64,000 bases of DNA from Alphaproteobacteria bacterium (GCA_028281325.1 JANQKC010000021.1:62001-126000), one strand, 5' to 3'; positions 32,930 through 57,473 are shown, counted from the first letter of the stretch. Notes: generated by a model from the letters alone, not told the origin. Numbers and translations are program-made.

Positions 32930-34288
32930 TCAGTTTCGGCTTAGGTTCACGGCATAGGGGTCACTGGAAATGGCCGAACGACGCGACGCCGCGGTTGGGC
33001 TTCGCGTGCTGATGTTCGCGGCAAGCTTTGCCGCCACCACGAAAAGCATCGCTTCCGACGAAAAGACGATGGCATAGGCCGTAACCGGCGAGCCGAGCAG
33101 ATACCGCGTCAGGTCGATCGCCGCCGCTCCGAGAAAACCGCCGAGACCGAACGCGATCGCCTGCGCGGCGCCCCACAGTCCCATACGAACGCCTTCGCGG
33201 TTGCCGCGCCCGGCGTTGACCAAGGCCATCATCGAGCCGATGGCCGCCACCGCAAAGGCGCCGTTCGCGACCCCTAAGATGAAGACGGATGTGCGGAGCG
33301 GCCAGGCCGGTCCGACGAAACCCGACGCCGCCAACCCGAAAAGCGCCAGTCCGGACGCGATGCATCCGCCGATCATCCAACTGGTCATCGTTCCGAAGCG
33401 GTTGCGGCCCAGTGGACTGCAGGCGAGGGCGACGGCGATCATGCCGACCAGCACGCCCCCATGTTGCACGCCCGCGAGCGTCGTCGATTCGCCCGGAGAG
33501 TATCCGAAGACGAGGCCGGCGAACGGTTCCAGGATGAGATCCTGTCCGCTGTAGGCCAGCATCGAGACGAAAACGAAGATCGAAAACCGGCGGGCGGTCG
33601 GCTCGCTCCAGACCTGACGCATGGCATCCCGGAAACTCGGATGCGGCGGCGCATCCAGGGACCGTGCCCGCGTGGGGGCCAGAACGCGGTCGCCTTCGAC
33701 ATTCCACACGGCGAAGATAGTAACCAGGACGGCGACGCCCGAGACGACCGCCGTGACGGCAATCAACCGCGCCGGCGTGAACGGATCGAGCCAATGCCCG
33801 GCGAGGCCCGCGGTAAGCGCAAACCCTGCGATCATCATGACCCAGACGACCGTTGCGGCCGGCGCCTTGCGGGCGTCGTCGACCCGTTTCGCCAACAGGA
33901 CGAGCAAGGACGTCCCCGATGCGCCGACGCCGGCGCCGATCGCCGCGAAGGCAACGACGGCGAGGGCAATGCCGCCGATCGGATTGCTGCCCATCCAGGC
34001 AGTGCCCGCCGCGGCGGCCACACCGCCCAGGGCAAGAACGCCCATGCCGCCGATTATCCAAGGGGTCCGCCGCCCGCCGACATCCGACCCATGCCCCATG
34101 CGCGGCCGAAGGATCTGCACCGCATAATGGAGTGCGACCAGCACTCCCGGCAGCATCGCGGGCAACATATGCTCGACGACCATGACCCGGTTCATCGTCG
34201 ACGTGGTCAACACGACGATCGCCCCGAGCGACGTCTGCACGAGGCCCAACCGGAAAATGCCGAACCAGCTGAGAGGTTGCTGCGTCAT
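32930..34288 (-). CDS. PucC-family (BCH2/ORF428-type) MFS protein
   Basis: 452 residues from ATG 34288 (4-bp overlap with bchG). Twelve-TM protein of the PucC family, the branch always found between bchG and bchP in proteobacterial photosynthesis clusters. Diagnostic stretches are LSWFGIFRLGLVQTSLGAIV, TSTMNRVMVVE, RRTPWIIGGMGVLALGG, DLILEPFAGLVFGYSPGEST and GLWGAAQAIAFGLGGFLGA. It is thought to handle bacteriochlorophyll delivery or antenna assembly, but its exact substrate is not known. It is paralogous to lhaA at 46918. Confidence 0.93.
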   Translation of the reverse strand: MTQQPLSWFGIFRLGLVQTSLGAIVVLTTSTMNRVMVVEHMLPAMLPGVLVALHYAVQILRPRMGHGSDVGGRRTPWIIGGMGVLALGGVAAAAGTAWMGSNPIGGIALAVVAFAAIGAGVGASGTSLLVLLAKRVDDARKAPAATVVWVMMIAGFALTAGLAGHWLDPFTPARLIAVTAVVSGVAVLVTIFAVWNVEGDRVLAPTRARSLDAPPHPSFRDAMRQVWSEPTARRFSIFVFVSMLAYSGQDLILEPFAGLVFGYSPGESTTLAGVQHGGVLVGMIAVALACSPLGRNRFGTMTSWMIGGCIASGLALFGLAASGFVGPAWPLRTSVFILGVANGAFAVAAIGSMMALVNAGRGNREGVRMGLWGAAQAIAFGLGGFLGAAAIDLTRYLLGSPVTAYAIVFSSEAMLFVVAAKLAANISTRSPTAASRRSAISSDPYAVNLSRN

Positions 34289-35208
34289 TCGGCGGCTCCC
34301 ACAAGGGGCGCCACGGCAAAGGCGCTGACGAGCATGCCGAACACGTAGAGCGTGGTGCCGGTGCCGTTGTACCACGGCGCCAAGCCGCGCGGGTCCGTCA
34401 AGAACCGCGCCATGAGCACGAACTGGACGATCAAAAAGAGTCCAACGATACCGGCATGGATGGGGCGGCCCCAGTCCAGCAGCAAGGCGATGACGACAAT
34501 CTGCGGCGCCGCCATGACGGCGCAGGCGACGCGCGCCGCCCAGGTCGGGCCGAGTTGCACGGGCAGCGACCGAATGCCCATGCGCCGGTCGCCGACAATC
34601 GCCTTGAAATCGTTCAGCGTCATGATGCCGTGCGCGCCGAAACTGTACAGCGCCGCAAGCAGGATGATGCGCCAGTCCGGGATGGCCGCGGCCATGATCG
34701 CCGCGCCGGTGAACCAGGCCAGACCTTCGTAGCAAATCGCGACCGCGCCGTTGCCCCACCAGCCGTTGCGTTTCAAACGGAAGGGCGGCGCGCTGTACGC
34801 CCAGGCCAGGACAAGGCCGACAACGGTGGCGGCGGCGACCGCGGGGCCAAGAAGCGCGGCGACGACGAGGGACAAAGCGCTCCAGATCATCGCGATATAC
34901 AGCCCCCAACGTCCGGGAATCCGGCCGGACGGTATGGGGCGGTCCGGCTCGTTGATCGCGTCGACATGCCGGTCGTACCAATCGTTGATCGCCTGGCTCA
35001 TCCCGCACACCAATGGTCCGGCAAGGACCACACCCGCCACGATGACATGCCAACGGTCCAGGCTCGCCGCGCCCGACGAGACAACACCACAGCCGAACGC
35101 CCACATCGGGGCGAACCAGGTTATCGGCTTGAGAAGTTCAACGACCGCCAGCGGCTTCGGCCGGGCCGACAATGCCGAGGGGAGTCTATTCGACGCCGTA
35201 TTTGACAT
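34285..35208 (-). CDS. bchG: Bacteriochlorophyll synthase BchG
   Basis: 307 residues from ATG 35208. UbiA-family membrane prenyltransferase that esterifies bacteriochlorophyllide a with geranylgeranyl diphosphate. Active-site motifs are INDWYDRHVDAINEPDRPIP and LNDFKAIVGDRRMGIRSLP. The start gives the normal 27 residues before the conserved LLKPITWFAPMWAFGCG. A TTG 12 codons upstream coincides with the predicted -35 box and is not used here. No Shine-Dalgarno is visible, and the predicted transcription start falls on the ATG itself. First gene of the leftward operon. Confidence 0.95.
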   Translation of the reverse strand: MSNTASNRLPSALSARPKPLAVVELLKPITWFAPMWAFGCGVVSSGAASLDRWHVIVAGVVLAGPLVCGMSQAINDWYDRHVDAINEPDRPIPSGRIPGRWGLYIAMIWSALSLVVAALLGPAVAAATVVGLVLAWAYSAPPFRLKRNGWWGNGAVAICYEGLAWFTGAAIMAAAIPDWRIILLAALYSFGAHGIMTLNDFKAIVGDRRMGIRSLPVQLGPTWAARVACAVMAAPQIVVIALLLDWGRPIHAGIVGLFLIVQFVLMARFLTDPRGLAPWYNGTGTTLYVFGMLVSAFAVAPLVGAAE

Positions 35209-35212
35209 AAGA

Positions 35213-35282
35213 AGAATGCTAGGTGTGACATAATTTAATGTCAAGCAACCTTTACATTCTTAAGTGTAAAGTTATATTTCCA
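35213..35282. promoter_or_regulatory. Array of PpsR/CrtJ binding sites upstream of bchG
   Basis: Central site TGT-N12-ACA at 35239-35256 (perfect consensus). Eight bp further from bchG is TGT-N12-CCA at 35265-35282 (one mismatch). Eight bp on the bchG side is a half-site ending in ACA at 35228-35230 that covers the -10 region. The 8-bp gaps match the spacing known for cooperative CrtJ binding. Overlapping hairpin arms TGACAT/ATGTCA and CTTTACA/TGTAAAG result from this arrangement. The rest of the 177-bp gap holds nothing else recognised. Confidence 0.75.
35216..35244 (-). promoter_or_regulatory. Predicted sigma-70 promoter of bchG
   Basis: On the minus strand TTGACA (35244-35239), exact 17-nt spacer, TAGCAT (35221-35216), then only TCTTCTT before ATG 35208. 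The -35 hexamer is the end of a perfect PpsR palindrome. Transcription would begin at or within a base or two of the initiation codon. Confidence 0.65.
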
Positions 35283-35385
35283 TTCCGTCGGCCATGATGC
35301 GACGGCCGTGATGGAGAGACCACTCACGCGGACCCGGCTTCAGGCCAATGAGCCGTTCAAATTGGGATATGTCGACGGCGGTCGG

Positions 35386-36801
35386 TCACTTATCGTCGAT
35401 CGTGCTGAGTTCGCCCAGCCCGTGTCGATGCAATTTCGAGTACAGGCTCTGCCGGCTGAGACCCAACACCTCGGCGGCCGAGGCGCGGTTGTCGCCGGTC
35501 AGCTCCAGCGCCGCTTCGATGCACAAGCGCTCGATCATATCGGTGGTTTCTTGCACCACCTGTTTTAGCGGGACACGGCCGACCAGTTCCGTCAGCTGAT
35601 CGACGGATTTCGGCAACGCCGACGACTTCGTCGTCGGCGCGGGAAGCCGACGGCCGACATTGCGAAACGTGAAACCGAGGCAGGGATGCTCGCCGGCTAA
35701 GACCGCGACGCCGGAAATTTCCACGTCGGCGGTCGCACCGTATTCCCCTTGCATCGTGGTCGCAAAAAGCTTCACGGTCCCGTGTTCGCGAAGTTTCGAG
35801 ATCAGAACATTGATGTCGACGCCCGACCGCCCCAACCAACGATCCAACGGATGGCCGATAACCTGCCGCTCGGCGACGAGTTGCGCCAAATCCAAGAACG
35901 CCTGGTTCGCCGTCAGGACACGGCCATCCATATCGGTGACGACGAAGCCGTCCGGAACCCGTTCGATCACGTCGAGAAGGTGCGATTGTTCGCGGGTCAA
36001 AGCGTCGGCGCGGCGGCCGTCTTGCGATGCAAGGCGAACAAGGAAATACGAGTCGCTGTCTTGGCGAAACAACGCCGCGGATAAGACGCACTCTATACCG
36101 CCGGTTCGGGACCGAACGACGATACTGTCACCCTCGCCGGTAGCCTCAACCGTGGACAGATAAGCCTCCAGTGGCTTGCGGCTCGCCGAGTCGAACACTC
36201 TGGCGAAAGCGCTGCCGACAACCTTATTGGGAATCTGAGACAGGAGCGCGCCGGCCGCCGGGTTGATTTCCACCACCTTGAGAGTCGCGGTATCGACGAT
36301 GAGGACCGCCTCGGAAGCGAGTTGAAAAAGCAGGCGATAGCGCGTTTCCGCGCTGCGTAACCGCTCGTATTCGCGCTCCATCGATTGTTGCGCGTCCACC
36401 AAGCGCTGCTGCAGCATGGCAACCGCCCGCAATTCCCGACCCACGGCAACGATCCGGCTCTTACGGCCAACGGAAACGGCGTTGTACAACACCGGCAGAT
36501 CGTTCCCGGATGGCGACGGATGGTTCAACTGCCGCCAGCGCGGCGCGTCCTTGGAGATCGCGCTTTCCAACAGCGCTTCCACCTTGGGACGGCTTTCGAT
36601 CGTGACGACTTCATCCCACCGGCGGCCAATCCATTTTTCGGATTCTTCGTCGGCAAGGTCTTCGTTGCCGACGGCGACGTCCTTAATCACGCCGCTCGCG
36701 TTCATGATGAGAACGATGTCCGCCGCGGTCGCAACCAAGGTCGCCGTTGCCTCAGCATCAAGACCACCTAGTGATTTTTCCGGTGCTGTAAAGTACTGCA
36801 A
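35386..36801 (-). CDS. ppsR: PpsR/CrtJ photosynthesis repressor, cysteine-containing copy
   Basis: 471 residues. Order: N-terminal PAS-like domain (about 14-120), Q-linker helix (VAMLQQRLVDAQQSMEREYE), PAS1 (about 150-255), PAS2 (about 275-382) and a Fis-type HTH (about 424-462, ASAAEVLGLSRQSLYSKLHR). It represses bch, puc and crt genes by binding TGT-N12-ACA. Cysteines are C238, C374 and C427; C427 at the HTH corresponds to the redox cysteine of Rhodobacter PpsR/CrtJ. The start is TTG 36801 with GAGG just upstream; no in-frame ATG/GTG precedes it. It lies 53 bp after aerR on the same strand, so the pair is an operon. Confidence 0.95.
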   Translation of the reverse strand: MQYFTAPEKSLGGLDAEATATLVATAADIVLIMNASGVIKDVAVGNEDLADEESEKWIGRRWDEVVTIESRPKVEALLESAISKDAPRWRQLNHPSPSGNDLPVLYNAVSVGRKSRIVAVGRELRAVAMLQQRLVDAQQSMEREYERLRSAETRYRLLFQLASEAVLIVDTATLKVVEINPAAGALLSQIPNKVVGSAFARVFDSASRKPLEAYLSTVEATGEGDSIVVRSRTGGIECVLSAALFRQDSDSYFLVRLASQDGRRADALTREQSHLLDVIERVPDGFVVTDMDGRVLTANQAFLDLAQLVAERQVIGHPLDRWLGRSGVDINVLISKLREHGTVKLFATTMQGEYGATADVEISGVAVLAGEHPCLGFTFRNVGRRLPAPTTKSSALPKSVDQLTELVGRVPLKQVVQETTDMIERLCIEAALELTGDNRASAAEVLGLSRQSLYSKLHRHGLGELSTIDDK

Positions 36802-36854
36802 CTGCGCCTCATGACCCGCGGACGAGGTCCTAGATTTACAAATGAACGCCGGCT

Positions 36855-37757
36855 TTATAGGCGGCGTGCCGGGTTCTCGGCAAGCAAGTTTTCTGCCTCT
36901 GAAACCGTCTGCTCCGCATCCTGAGCCGTCGCATCTGCTCCAATAAGCTCACAATACTCCGGATGCTCAATAAAGACCGGACCGCCAACCATCACCGCAA
37001 CATCTTCGTTGCGTGAAGATTTCCGAATCCGTTTGATCGCTTTTTCCAATCGGGCGAGCCCCAGCTCGTTTCCGAGCGAAAGACCCACGATCGCAAACCA
37101 CTCCTTATTGACCGTGCTCGCAATATCTTCGTTCGACCTGGGCGATGTCGTTGCGACATCCCAGCTGGCGCGGCGAAGGAATTCGGCCACGATGAAAATG
37201 CCGAACGTGTGTTGCTCGCCCGGCGCCGGAACGAGCAATGCCCGCCGGCCCGGACCCTTATTGTCCTCGCCATAAACAAAATCACGGCTCAACCACCGCA
37301 AGACCTGCTGCAATCGGCCCAAACCCATGGTGACTTCCGCGAAACTACAGCGGTCTTCGACCCACAGGTCGCCCAAATGCCGTGCGGTTGGGGCAAGCAA
37401 ATCCAAAAATAGTTCTTCGACTGAAATGTTCCGTGCGCGGAGCGCCTTAATGTATGCGTTGATAACGTGGTCGTCCTCCTTCACCACGACCTTTGCGAAT
37501 TCCTCGATGTCCGATTGTCCGATCGCCGGCGATTCGTTCGCCTCGGATACTGTCGCATCCGATTCGGCTTTATGGACCATCATCAGGCGGGGAATTATCT
37601 CGCCTTCGATCGTGCTGACGAGATGCTTCTTCAGGCTTTGCGGGTCGCTTACCTCCGCAAAGGTAAGCCGATCGCTATCGTCAAATTGGCTCCAACATTC
37701 TTCGGCCTGCTCGTCGCTTTGCGACTGAGCTATGTGCCTCTCAAGCAATCCAGCCAT
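36855..37757 (-). CDS. aerR: AerR/PpaA-type cobalamin-binding antirepressor
   Basis: 300 residues from ATG 37757, preceded by a strong AAGGGGGA ribosome site; an ATG 12 codons upstream is less likely. N-terminal region (1-85) is variable and acidic. Then comes the helical B12-cap domain (RCSFAEVTMGLGRLQQVLR), and a B12-binding Rossmann domain with PAPGEQHTFG, whose H183 corresponds to the cobalamin-ligating His of Rhodobacter AerR, plus SLGNELGLARLEKAIKRIR and MVGGPVF. AerR/PpaA binds adenosyl- or hydroxocobalamin and modulates PpsR/CrtJ DNA binding in a light-dependent way. Directly upstream of ppsR in an apparent operon. Confidence 0.93.
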   Translation of the reverse strand: MAGLLERHIAQSQSDEQAEECWSQFDDSDRLTFAEVSDPQSLKKHLVSTIEGEIIPRLMMVHKAESDATVSEANESPAIGQSDIEEFAKVVVKEDDHVINAYIKALRARNISVEELFLDLLAPTARHLGDLWVEDRCSFAEVTMGLGRLQQVLRWLSRDFVYGEDNKGPGRRALLVPAPGEQHTFGIFIVAEFLRRASWDVATTSPRSNEDIASTVNKEWFAIVGLSLGNELGLARLEKAIKRIRKSSRNEDVAVMVGGPVFIEHPEYCELIGADATAQDAEQTVSEAENLLAENPARRL

Positions 37758-37842
37758 TGGATTCCCCCTTCTTGGTTCCCTCCAAAACGACAAGCTGTCT
37801 TTACACTTGTCTTATTCTTTGACGTGACCTTAGCAGAGAATC

Positions 37843-37860
37843 TGTCAACTAAAAGAGTCA
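37843..37860 (-). promoter_or_regulatory. Near-consensus PpsR site upstream of aerR
   Basis: TGT-N12-TCA on the plus strand (one mismatch). Read toward aerR it ends in TTGACA, as do the PpsR sites of bchG and bchF, but no good -10 is found at 16-18 nt. It lies 86 nt from the aerR ATG and could allow autoregulation. Confidence 0.35.
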
Positions 37861-37950
37861 TTTTGGAACCAAGACCTGCGGAGAAGCAAAATTTTGCGCC
37901 AATCCGCCCATGAAACTTCCACACGCAATACTCTCGTATCCCTTTCGAAA

Positions 37951-37994
37951 TGTCAAATAATTTGGACTTGTATATATGTCATGTATGATTGACA
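37951..37994 (+). promoter_or_regulatory. Tandem PpsR/CrtJ sites upstream of bchF
   Basis: Site 1 is TGT-N12-ACT at 37951-37968 (one mismatch; TGTCAAATAATTTGGACT). Site 2 is TGTCATGTATGATTGACA at 37977-37994, a perfect TGT-N12-ACA. They are exactly 8 bp apart, as in cooperative CrtJ operators, and site 2 ends in the bchF -35 hexamer. Confidence 0.8.
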
Positions 37995-38017
37995 GTTCAG
38001 GATAACACCTCTAAATT
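37989..38017 (+). promoter_or_regulatory. Predicted sigma-70 promoter of the bchF operon
   Basis: TTGACA (37989-37994), 17-nt spacer, TAAATT (38012-38017). The start of transcription would be near 38024, about 28 nt before the small ORF at 38052. The same layout of PpsR site, -35 and 17-nt spacer occurs at bchG. Confidence 0.65.
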
Positions 38018-38051: not shown

Positions 38052-38167
38052 ATGGCTTATCGGCGCACGTCCGTTGATTTTGGAGAGAGTTTTCCCGGGA
38101 TTCTCATCGCGACACCCGCCAACCGTCAGCCAGGCGCCACGCAGCAAGCCGAACAGGGAGGTGTCAA

Positions 38168-38171
<4 letters not shown>
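38052..38171 (+). CDS. Putative 39-residue leader peptide coupled to bchF
   Basis: ATG 38052 is preceded by AAGGGA at 38041-38046, a good ribosome site, and the frame ends at a TGA that overlaps the bchF ATG (ATGA). It is the first ORF after the predicted bchF promoter. The peptide begins MAYRRTSVDFGESFPGI and ends QQAEQGGVK; it has no TM segment and resembles no family I know. It may be a real small protein, or a leader whose translation opens the bchF ribosome site, which lies inside its last codons. Conservation was not testable here. Confidence 0.45.
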
Positions 38172-40065
<1,894 letters not shown>

Positions 40066-53903: not shown

Positions 53904-53942
53904 GTGTATGAACTCGATATCCGAGCGGTGGTGTCAGAATGA
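53904..53942 (+). pseudogene. 12-codon GTG ORF resembling the missing N-terminus of PpsR2
   Basis: GTG 53904 opens a 12-codon frame ending LDIRAVVSE and stopping at TGA 53940, which overlaps the ppsR2 ATG (ATGA). Joined without gap to the ppsR2 product after its Met, LDIRAVVSE-NLAQPDITLHL... aligns residue for residue over 29 positions with LDAEATATLVATAADIVLIM... of the other PpsR in the window. This implies the original N-terminal helix is now in another frame, by mutation, sequencing error or true split translation. Confidence 0.5.
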
Positions 53943-55258
53943 ATTTGGCCCAGCCTGACATTACGCTTCACCTTGATTTGGACGGCATAATTCGAGACGT
54001 AAACCTGTCTGGGTCGATCCCGGAAAACGGCGTGACGGCGTGGATCGGCTCTCCCTGGACGCAGACGGTCGGCGACGTCAGCGCCGACAAGATCAAACTC
54101 ATGATCGAGCATGCCCGCAAGAATGGCATGTCGGCTTTTCGCCAGCTGAATCAGCAATTTCCCAGCGGCCAGGAAATTCCGATCGAATACACGACGATCC
54201 GCGTCAGCGATTCCACCGGACTGGTGGCGATCGGCAAAAGCCTGCAAACCGTCGCGGAACTGCAATCGCGCCTGATCTCCGCGCAACAGGCGATGGAGCG
54301 GGACTACTGGAAGTTCCGCGAGATCGAAACACGCTACCGATTGCTGTTCGACGCATCCAACGAAGCGGTCTTGATCGTTCGCGCGGCGAATATGCATATC
54401 GTGGAAGCGAATCCGGTGGCGATCCGAACGTTGGGCCTGATGGCCGGCGGCCGTGATTTCAGGGCCGAGCTTCGGCAGGACGAGCGCGAAGAATTCGAGA
54501 AGATGCTGGAAACCGTCCGCGAGCACGGTAAATCGCCGCGGACAATCTTCCATCTTGGACAGAACCAAGAAGCGTGGCTGGTCAGCGCGTCCTTGATGAC
54601 CGCCGACCCCGGGCCGGTATTCCTGCTGCAACTGACGCCGTTCGGCAAATTGGAAGAAATCGTCGATAACAAACCGACGGTCGCGGCAGGGGATATATTG
54701 GACCGGGCCCCGGACGCCATCGTCGCCACCACAGATAAAGATACGATCCAATACGCCAATCCGGCCTTCTTGAACCTGGTGCAGGTCAACGACCACCGAT
54801 CGGTGATCGGCAAAACCTTGAGCCGATGGATCGGACGGGCCGGCGCGGATATGACGGCATTGATGTCGCGTGTCGCGGACAATGGATATGTCCGGCTTTT
54901 CCCGACGACGCTCGAATCCGAACTTGGCACGCAAACCGATGTCGAGATTTCAGCGGCGCGTAACGGCGAGGCCGATCCGCCGTCGACCAGTTTCGTTATC
55001 CGCGACGTGAGCGCGCGCTTGGCACAACCCAGTATCGACCGATCCGCCGCCTTGCCGGACACGACGAGTGCACATCTTGGGGTGGAGTCGCTGCAAACGG
55101 TCGTTCGGAAGGCCGTTGACTCGATAGAACAGCGCTATATCGAAGCGGCGTTGGTTTCGACCCGGGGGAACCGCAGCGCCGCCGCCGATTTACTGGGTTT
55201 GAGCCGACAGGCTCTATATGCCAAACTCAACCGCTACGGGTTAGATGGAAGAACGTAA
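53939..55258 (+). CDS. ppsR2: PpsR paralogue without cysteines (PpsR2)
   Basis: 439 residues. Same layout as the other PpsR: truncated N-terminal PAS-like domain, Q-linker (LQTVAELQSRLISAQQAMER), PAS1, PAS2 and Fis-type HTH (SAAADLLGLSRQALYAKLNR). It contains no cysteine at all; Tyr replaces the HTH redox cysteine (EQRYIEAAL against ERLCIEAAL). It begins about 20 residues later in the fold than its paralogue, and the missing part seems encoded in another frame just upstream. The gene is 37 bp before the bacteriophytochrome gene on the same strand, matching the BphP-PpsR2 pairing known in Rhodopseudomonas and Bradyrhizobium. Confidence 0.94.
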   Translation: MNLAQPDITLHLDLDGIIRDVNLSGSIPENGVTAWIGSPWTQTVGDVSADKIKLMIEHARKNGMSAFRQLNQQFPSGQEIPIEYTTIRVSDSTGLVAIGKSLQTVAELQSRLISAQQAMERDYWKFREIETRYRLLFDASNEAVLIVRAANMHIVEANPVAIRTLGLMAGGRDFRAELRQDEREEFEKMLETVREHGKSPRTIFHLGQNQEAWLVSASLMTADPGPVFLLQLTPFGKLEEIVDNKPTVAAGDILDRAPDAIVATTDKDTIQYANPAFLNLVQVNDHRSVIGKTLSRWIGRAGADMTALMSRVADNGYVRLFPTTLESELGTQTDVEISAARNGEADPPSTSFVIRDVSARLAQPSIDRSAALPDTTSAHLGVESLQTVVRKAVDSIEQRYIEAALVSTRGNRSAAADLLGLSRQALYAKLNRYGLDGRT

Positions 55259-55295: not shown

Positions 55296-57473
55296 TTGAC
55301 GCCACCATCGTCACCGGCGCCGGCATTCGGGCAAGCTGACCTCTCAAACTGCGAGCGCGAGCAGATCCAGCTGGCGGGATCGATCCAGCCTCATGGCGCA
55401 CTCCTGGTGCTCCGTGAACCCGATCTGACGGTCATACAGGCGAGCCGGAACGCGGCATCCTTCCTGAAAATTGGCGACGACCTCTTAGGGAAGAACCTAC
55501 ACGATCTCGGGGGCGATTTGGCCGACCGCATCCGGCCGCATCTCGACGATAACCTGGATACGATTCCCATGGCCGTTCGCTGCAAGCTCGGCGAGCAAGG
55601 GTCGGTGTTCGATTCGCTGATCCACCGTCCGCCGGAAGGCGGTTTGATCATCGAACTCGAACCGGCCGGGCCACAGATCGCGCTATCCGAAAATATAGGA
55701 GCCGCACTGAAGACGTTGCTGCCCTGCACGTCGGTTCGCGCCCTCGCCGACGCCGTGACCGTCGTCTTCAAGGATCTTATCGGCTACGACAGGGTCATGG
55801 TGTATCGCTTCGACAGCGAAGGCCACGGCGAAGTCTTCGCCGAGGAGAGAAACGAAGACCTCGAGCCGTTTCTCGGCAACTGGTACCCCGCCTCCGATAT
55901 CCCCCGGATCGCGCGAGACTTATATATCCGGAACCGGGTTCGGGTGCTGGTGGATGTGGATTACGAGCCGACCCCGCTTGAGCCCCTGTTTTCGCCGGCG
56001 ACCGGTAAAGACCTGGATATGTCGCTCTGCGGCCTACGCAGCATGTCGCCCATTCATATTCAGTACCTAAAGAATATGGGCGTCTCCGCAACGCTTGTCG
56101 CATCGATCGTCGTCGGCGGCAAGCTGTGGGGGATGGTTTCCTGCCATCATTACGAACCACGCTTCGTTCACTACGAAACCCGGGCGATGTGCGAGCTGCT
56201 TGCGGAAATCATCGCGACCCGGTTCGCGGCGCTTGAGAGTTTTGTCCAGAGCCAGGCGGAATTGTCCGTTCGGCGACTGGAACAACATATGATCGAGACC
56301 ATCGCGCGTGACGGCGATTGGACGGCGGCACTCTTCGAACAGTCGCCGCGCACGCTGCTGCAACCCCTGAATGCGGGCGGCGCGGCCCTGACCTTCGAGG
56401 GCAATATCTTCACGACGGGCGATGTCCCCGGCACCCACCACCTCCGCGATATCGTCGAATGGCTGGACCAAAAAAACCCGTCGACGGTTTTCTCGACCGC
56501 CTCGCTGGCATCGGAAGCGCCCGACCTTGCGGCGGCGGCCGATGTCGCCAGCGGACTTGTCGCAACCCCCGTATCCAAATCACCGGGGGAATTTCTCCTT
56601 TGGTTTCGACCGGAGCGAATCCGGACGGTTACATGGGGCGGCGACCCCAACAAGCCTGTCATCATCGGGGACAACCCACTGGACCTGTCGCCGCGCCGCT
56701 CCTTCGCCCAATGGCATCAACTGGTCGAAGGCACCAGCGACCCCTGGACCGCGGCGGACCTGAAAGCCGCCCGGCTTATCGGCGCGACCGTACGGGATGT
56801 CGTCCTTCAATTCAGGTCCATGCGGCTGCTGATTACCCAAGATCAGCTCAACATCGTCAGCAAACAGATCGGCGGATCGGAACATCCGGTGGTCATCGCC
56901 GATACAACAGGCCGCATCCTCCTGTTGAACCAGGCCTTCAAAGATCTGGTACCGGCCGATGAAGACGATTTTGAGAGCCTGGAAGACCTGGCCGATTGTT
57001 TCCGGCAGTGCGGCGCCGTGCGCCGCAACATAAAGGATTTGATCGAGAGAAACCGGTCTTGGCGCGGCGAAATCCGGCTGACGAGCGCCGAGAACGTCGA
57101 GAAAGCCCTTCTGGTGCGCGCGGACCCGGTGTTCTCCGCACCGGGCCATGCCCTGGGATATGTCATGCTGTTCACGGATCTCGCGGAACGCCAGGCCGTA
57201 GAGAGCGCCCGACAGCGATTCCAAGAAAGCGTCCTGGAACAGCGCCGCGCGATGACGATGCGGCTCGACTCGAAAGCGGACTTGGTTTTCCGCAACCTAT
57301 TGTCATCCGTCATCGAGAACGCGCAGCTTGCCGCGCTTGAGATCACGGACGGAATCGACATGGACGAAGTCCCCACGATGCTCGGCAATGTGCGCTCGTC
57401 GGTCGGACGGACGGCCGAACTGCTCGAACACTTGATCTGGCATTCGACACGGGAAGCCGGCGACGACGACTGA
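55296..57473 (+). CDS. bphP: Bacteriophytochrome with PAS-GAF-PHY and a non-kinase output region
   Basis: 725 residues from TTG 55296, with GGGAAGGG just upstream. Biliverdin-binding C19 lies in DLSNCEREQIQLAGSIQPHG. The GAF domain has YDRVMVYRFD, PASDIP (198-203) and SPIHIQYLKN (H254); the PHY tongue has PRRSF (466-470). These are all canonical red/far-red phytochrome features. After PHY there is a PAS domain (about 520-630) and a two-helix coiled segment (RQRFQESVLEQRRAMTMRLD onward), but no histidine-kinase ATPase domain. This is the architecture of RpBphP1/BrBphP, which bind and antagonise PpsR2 rather than phosphorylating a response regulator. Confidence 0.95.
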   Translation: MTPPSSPAPAFGQADLSNCEREQIQLAGSIQPHGALLVLREPDLTVIQASRNAASFLKIGDDLLGKNLHDLGGDLADRIRPHLDDNLDTIPMAVRCKLGEQGSVFDSLIHRPPEGGLIIELEPAGPQIALSENIGAALKTLLPCTSVRALADAVTVVFKDLIGYDRVMVYRFDSEGHGEVFAEERNEDLEPFLGNWYPASDIPRIARDLYIRNRVRVLVDVDYEPTPLEPLFSPATGKDLDMSLCGLRSMSPIHIQYLKNMGVSATLVASIVVGGKLWGMVSCHHYEPRFVHYETRAMCELLAEIIATRFAALESFVQSQAELSVRRLEQHMIETIARDGDWTAALFEQSPRTLLQPLNAGGAALTFEGNIFTTGDVPGTHHLRDIVEWLDQKNPSTVFSTASLASEAPDLAAAADVASGLVATPVSKSPGEFLLWFRPERIRTVTWGGDPNKPVIIGDNPLDLSPRRSFAQWHQLVEGTSDPWTAADLKAARLIGATVRDVVLQFRSMRLLITQDQLNIVSKQIGGSEHPVVIADTTGRILLLNQAFKDLVPADEDDFESLEDLADCFRQCGAVRRNIKDLIERNRSWRGEIRLTSAENVEKALLVRADPVFSAPGHALGYVMLFTDLAERQAVESARQRFQESVLEQRRAMTMRLDSKADLVFRNLLSSVIENAQLAALEITDGIDMDEVPTMLGNVRSSVGRTAELLEHLIWHSTREAGDDD

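Follow-up and report, generated by a model that had tools for sequence, protein, structure and literature searches.

The conserved arms of a PpsR operator read TGTCAA-N6-TTGACA and the arm equals the -35 consensus, so that part of the tendency of TGT-N12-ACA sites to finish with TTGACA follows from the consensus itself. In relatives, PpsR/CrtJ binds pairs of such palindromes, covers the -35 and -10 and represses transcription, and mutation derepresses (PMC5362033, PMC10890935, PMC4452267). At Rhodobacter capsulatus bchC, according to PMC5362033 and the earlier footprints that it cites, palindromes at -47 to -30 and -21 to -4 are separated by an 8-bp gap and are bound by CrtJ in vivo and in vitro; the upper palindrome ends at -30 and its right arm therefore coincides with the -35 hexamer. 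At Dinoroseobacter shibae bchF, PpsR sites lie over the -35 and -10 and mutation of a half-site derepresses (PMC10890935). The PpsR pairs of Rubrivivax gelatinosus are spaced by N8 at crtI and by N9 at pucB (PMC4452267).

The window, that is, the whole stretch of 64,000 nucleotides that we analysed, contains genes of the photosynthesis cluster of an alphaproteobacterium (Table 1). NCBIfam models identified bchG, PpsR, BchF, BchP and BchH and, further along, puhA, puhB, acsF, a second PpsR, a bacteriophytochrome-like protein, PufC and PufL. Among 11 genomes of the family that were compared, bchF was present only in the genome that carries the window; the cluster is patchy in the family, reflecting either loss elsewhere or acquisition here.

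Table 1. Genes and predicted regulatory features, with positions counted from the first letter of the window.
Feature	Position	Strand	Basis or remark
bchG, bacteriochlorophyll synthase	34285-35208	-	NCBIfam bchG/ChlG models
Degenerate third palindrome of bchG, TGTCACACCTAGCATTCT	35213-35230	-	8 bp downstream of primary palindrome, over -10
Predicted -10 of bchG, TAGCAT	35216-35221	-	17 nt from TTGACA; 4/6 match to TATAAT
Primary PpsR palindrome of bchG, TGTAAAGGTTGCTTGACA	35239-35256	-	Perfect TGT-N12-ACA; last six bases TTGACA, predicted -35
Upstream partner of bchG, TGGAAATATAACTTTACA	35265-35282	-	One mismatch; 8-bp gap to TGTAAAGGTTGCTTGACA
PpsR/CrtJ repressor, first copy	35386-36801	-	TIGR02040, 512 bits (cut-off 275)
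AerR/PpaA-like B12-binding co-regulator	36855-37793	-	Weak corrinoid-domain matches; divergent from bchF
Upstream partner of bchF, TGTCAAATAATTTGGACT	37951-37968	+	One mismatch; 8-bp gap to TGTCATGTATGATTGACA
Primary PpsR palindrome of bchF, TGTCATGTATGATTGACA	37977-37994	+	Perfect; last six bases TTGACA, predicted -35
Predicted -10 of bchF, TAAATT	38012-38017	+	17 nt from TTGACA; 4/6 match to TATAAT
Third perfect TGT-N12-ACA at bchF	38162-38179	+	Overlaps bchF start codon
bchF, 2-vinyl bacteriochlorophyllide hydratase	38168-38779	+	TIGR02020
Second PpsR	53939-55258	+	TIGR02040, 433 bits
Bacteriophytochrome-like gene	55296-57473		Directly after second PpsR; BphP model, E 8e-106, below its cut-off

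The predicted promoters of bchG and bchF have the same geometry. As the sequence-only reading had described, each contains a perfect TGT-N12-ACA ending in TTGACA, a 17-nt spacer and a -10 hexamer, with a one-mismatch PpsR site exactly 8 bp upstream, and all of these elements were found where it had placed them. The architecture is not 73 bp long, as it had stated; both modules measure 18+8+18+17+6 = 67 bp. Read on the minus strand, bchG has TGGAAATATAACTTTACA, 8 bp, TGTAAAGGTTGCTTGACA, 17 nt, TAGCAT and TCTTCTT, followed by the ATG, which starts 7 nt past the -10. The bchF ATG is preceded by AGGGAGG, and the predicted leader is ~145 nt. When each intergenic region was shuffled 20,000 times with dinucleotides preserved, perfect sites ending in TTGACA rarely arose (p = 0.00045 for bchG and 0.0019 for bchF) and the full arrangement never did, for either gene. 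The observation is real and beyond chance. A bidirectional promoter shared by the two genes is ruled out because ppsR and aerR intervene, the order being bchG(-), ppsR(-), aerR-like(-), bchF(+). We also weighed the perfect palindrome at the bchF start codon as a possible downstream operator but discarded it, chance being more likely; its position is probably a coincidence. On the aerR side of the gap between bchF and aerR there is also a one-mismatch PpsR-like site (37843-37860) that ends in TTGACA when read towards aerR.

The pairs at bchG and bchF are, in all probability, further cases of known PpsR/CrtJ-repressed photosynthesis promoters. They share with R. capsulatus bchC two TGT-N12-ACA palindromes separated by N8, the right arm of the upper bchC palindrome lying on the -35 (PMC5362033). 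The second bchC palindrome lies downstream, over the -10, whereas the better partner in the window lies upstream of the -35 palindrome, and bchG in the window keeps a degenerate palindrome downstream. The use of an operator arm as the -35 is already known in kind, since the upper bchC palindrome ends at -30. D. shibae bchF is similar in that PpsR sites cover its -35 and -10 regions and the gene lies beside a divergent ppaA/aerR gene, but four sites are predicted there and their spacing is unlike the N8 upstream pair of the window (PMC10890935). The R. gelatinosus crtI and pucB pairs are also tandem palindromes (N8 and N9) in which one-base deviations (TGa, cGT) are tolerated, but these are other genes, and redox-dependent binding is known there from the N9 spacing only (PMC4452267).

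The first PpsR copy is the likely ligand of the bchG and bchF operators. Two copies are encoded in the window, both above the TIGR02040 cut-off and 38% identical to each other, and the gene between ppsR and bchF would, from this position, be aerR. It could be argued that the second PpsR is the main reader of the operators, with light over redox as the signal: its gene adjoins the bacteriophytochrome-like gene, it has no cysteine adjoining the HTH, and the recognition helices of the two copies are nearly identical (LGLSRQSLYSKLHRHGL and LGLSRQALYAKLNRYGL). However, sequence cannot separate the two copies and the sites can be assigned to neither, and we consider this unlikely. It is in any case a variant of the explanation that we prefer and no alternative to the promoter design.

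Sites of the form TGT-N9-TTGACA are unusual in this genome in placement, not in number. There were 11 perfect TGT-N12-ACA sites in the window, compared to 5.0 expected and a maximum of 10 in 100 shuffles. The pattern TGT-N9-TTGACA occurred at 10 places in 5.1 Mb, and eight of these were at photosynthesis promoters: bchG, bchF (two), bchC (two), crtI and puc (two). The total was not raised genome-wide (12 strand hits versus 20 for the reversed-pattern control). Pairs with N8 spacing and at most one mismatch were found eight times, versus three for the reversed-pattern control, and five of the eight were at bchC, puc, bchG, bchF and the gap between crtE and crtD. The pair in the divergent crtE/crtD gap has one mismatch and is at L008:7067-7110 (C20:131067-131110).

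A scan of the genome for the same architecture, which the sequence-only reading had proposed, gave a mixed outcome. The puc promoter, which we recognised by eye because two small light-harvesting-type ORFs follow the operator, fits the 67-bp layout with both palindromes perfect ([TGT-N12-ACA]-N8-[TGT-N9-TTGACA]-N17-TACCCT). In contrast, bchC and crtI differ. The bchC promoter has the same pair as bchG and bchF, displaced by one site: its -35 is the arm of the upstream palindrome, and its -10, TACAAT at 16 nt, is inside the downstream palindrome. At crtI there is a single perfect palindrome directly at the start codon.

The upstream partner at N8 is not a conserved part of either promoter. We took loci around ppsR from other proteobacteria, found bchF and bchG in them by tblastn, anchored each sequence at its best operator and read downstream (39 bchG and 51 bchF loci besides the window); to find partners, 18-mers were scored at every offset from the anchor operator. 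Although a one-mismatch N8 partner is present at both genes in the window, this offset (-26) was unenriched in the relatives, with z of 0.5 for bchF and -0.2 for bchG. An enriched partner of bchG was downstream at N8 (+26, z 4.1), chiefly its left arm; the TGTCA half-site within TGTCACACCTAGCATTCT is the counterpart in the window of this partner kept by relatives. Peaks at 13 bp in the bchG profile are expected because palindrome arms partly match themselves there, in addition to the half-site. At bchF, the enriched partner was at -16 (z 5.3), where the two palindromes overlap by two bases and their centres are 16 bp apart. Some relatives of the same order have an upstream partner at N6 at bchG and the overlapping form at bchF, and bchC pairs in 30 phototroph genomes were spaced by N8 in 25 and by N7 in five.

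These results bear on the claim that selection acted, at bchG and bchF alike, on a single 67-bp operator-promoter module as one unit, with an essential upstream N8 dimer. The geometry of bchG and bchF is identical in this genome and puc fits it too, as such a module would predict, but the N8 upstream partner is unenriched among relatives of either gene, relatives of the same order have other partners, and bchC and crtI of the same genome differ. We therefore think such a module improbable. What survives of the earlier claim is the right arm serving as the -35, with the -10 at a fixed distance in relatives; the shared upstream partner does not. With good confidence, we favor the reading in which the position of the partner varies by gene and lineage, and the sameness of bchG and bchF reflects a general N8 spacing rule.

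The overlapping form recurs at bchF in other phototrophs. TGT-N12-ACGT-N12-ACA or a near form was present in 45 of 52 bchF loci, when the core A and GT were required and the C was left free. In 1.36 Mb of loci, base composition predicts ~1.3 occurrences of the exact form; there were 50, of which 48 are at bchF, near-duplicate loci counted. A slightly stricter form was found in 22 of 29 other phototroph genomes, a few of the matches looking like chance; the five family members that lack bchF and the genome that carries the window had none. Off-register controls in the 35 genomes gave two hits (33 bp) and none (36 bp). The 34-bp double palindrome is thus present at bchF in most other phototrophs (loci L012-L080; for example, L073:11741-11774), and further copies were seen close to genes that resemble dxs, bchI and puhA, which were identified by eye. 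Read towards aerR, the overlapping palindrome's left arm was followed by a weaker -10 signal at 17 nt (z 6.7), and this arm may be the -35 for the divergent aerR. The bchF of the window is unusual: the centres of its pair are separated by 26 bp instead of 16, and the extra 10 bp amount to about one helical turn.

The right arm of the operator is very probably the -35 box at bchG and bchF, because relatives keep a -10 hexamer at a constant distance from it. Most bchG loci have an operator at the position of the primary site. In the 39 bchG relatives, the -10 was at a spacer of 17 (z = 11.6 versus shuffled flanks), with 0.9, 1.35 and 1.2 bits at the T, A and last T columns; much of the spacer had no more than 0.2 bits, except its first bases and the TGTCA half-site 8 nt past the operator. 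In the 51 bchF relatives, the -10 was at a spacer of 17 or 18 (z = 12.1 versus shuffles, and 12-13 across analyses). The loci are homologous, and an anchor had to carry TTGAC or TTTAC in its right arm; the -10 and ATG signals alone are thus free of this condition, and the z-scores measure conservation and not independent events. Judged from the sequence and the -10 distance in relatives, the operators at both genes are predicted to overlap the -35 and/or the -10. Together, these results suggest that the arrangement is ancestral at both promoters. That the TTGACA ends are instead a by-product of the PpsR consensus, with the true promoters elsewhere and the -10 matches fortuitous, is very unlikely, for while the consensus arm does equal the -35 consensus, -10 hexamers matching at 4/6 are common and bchC of this genome takes its -35 from the upstream palindrome's arm, divergent loci have the -10 exactly 17 nt from the operator at bchG and 17-18 nt from it at bchF, a signal far over shuffles, and this signal was missing at most neighbouring offsets in the bchG and bchF loci and, for the bchG operator, at a spacer of 17 read the opposite way.

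The bchG mRNA is probably leaderless, with transcription starting at the A of the ATG. In the window, this is predicted from the 7-nt distance between the -10 and the ATG. An in-frame ATG was present 28-31 nt past the operator in 33 of 40 bchG loci, in most cases 6-7 nt beyond the -10. In 12 of these 40 loci, the -10 begins with an in-frame TAG or TAA, excluding a start further upstream in those loci. There was no excess of Shine-Dalgarno sequences at bchG starts, unlike at ppsR and bchF starts, whose scores were more generous in being the best over several candidate starts. Read-through from ppsR, which is upstream on the same strand, could be a further source of bchG mRNA.

Based on the sites, their spacings and their conservation, we believe with considerable assurance that bchG and bchF have sigma-70-type promoters of ancestral design in which the right arm of a PpsR/CrtJ palindrome, TTGACA, serves as the -35 hexamer, and that repression occurs by exclusion of polymerase. 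A PpsR dimer on the palindrome ending in TTGACA would compete with RNA polymerase and exclude it; because operator and -35 coincide, repression is probably direct competition for the promoter. A second dimer on the upstream palindrome, 26 bp away centre to centre, would add cooperativity. Both upstream partners in the window carry one mismatch, which counts against this explanation. Inactivation or remodelling of PpsR, whether through redox, through AerR or through the second, phytochrome-linked PpsR, would free the TTGACA arm and let bchG and bchF be transcribed, and the bchG message, starting at the A of its ATG, would be translated as a leaderless mRNA.

More tentatively, the observations might be joined under a helical-phase rule with two interchangeable operator forms, the outer arms serving as -35 boxes, bchF of the window being one turn longer and bchG being compact and leaderless; as a whole, we would lean slightly against it. 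If true, centres would be 16 bp apart (~1.5 turns) in the overlapping form and 26 bp apart (~2.5 turns) in the tandem N8 form, the outer arms at bchF could supply the -35 of the divergent aerR as well as that of bchF, and bchG would have its operator, both promoter hexamers and a start codon at +1 in one unit kept across alpha-, beta- and gammaproteobacteria. The 34-bp overlapping operator at bchF and the apparent leaderless bchG look newer than the design in which an arm is the -35. Searches of the literature gave no report of overlapping PpsR palindromes or of a leaderless bchG, which is weak evidence given that older subscription papers were mostly outside their reach.

The findings indicate that the PpsR operator and the -35 are one piece of DNA at two bacteriochlorophyll genes over long evolutionary distances. 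What appears ancestral (the arm as the -35, with a -10 at 17-18 nt) can now be separated from what is variable (the place and phase of the partner). The overlapping form of the operator would escape a search that uses TGT-N12-ACA alone, and predictions follow about the cooperativity of PpsR and the leaderless translation of bchG.
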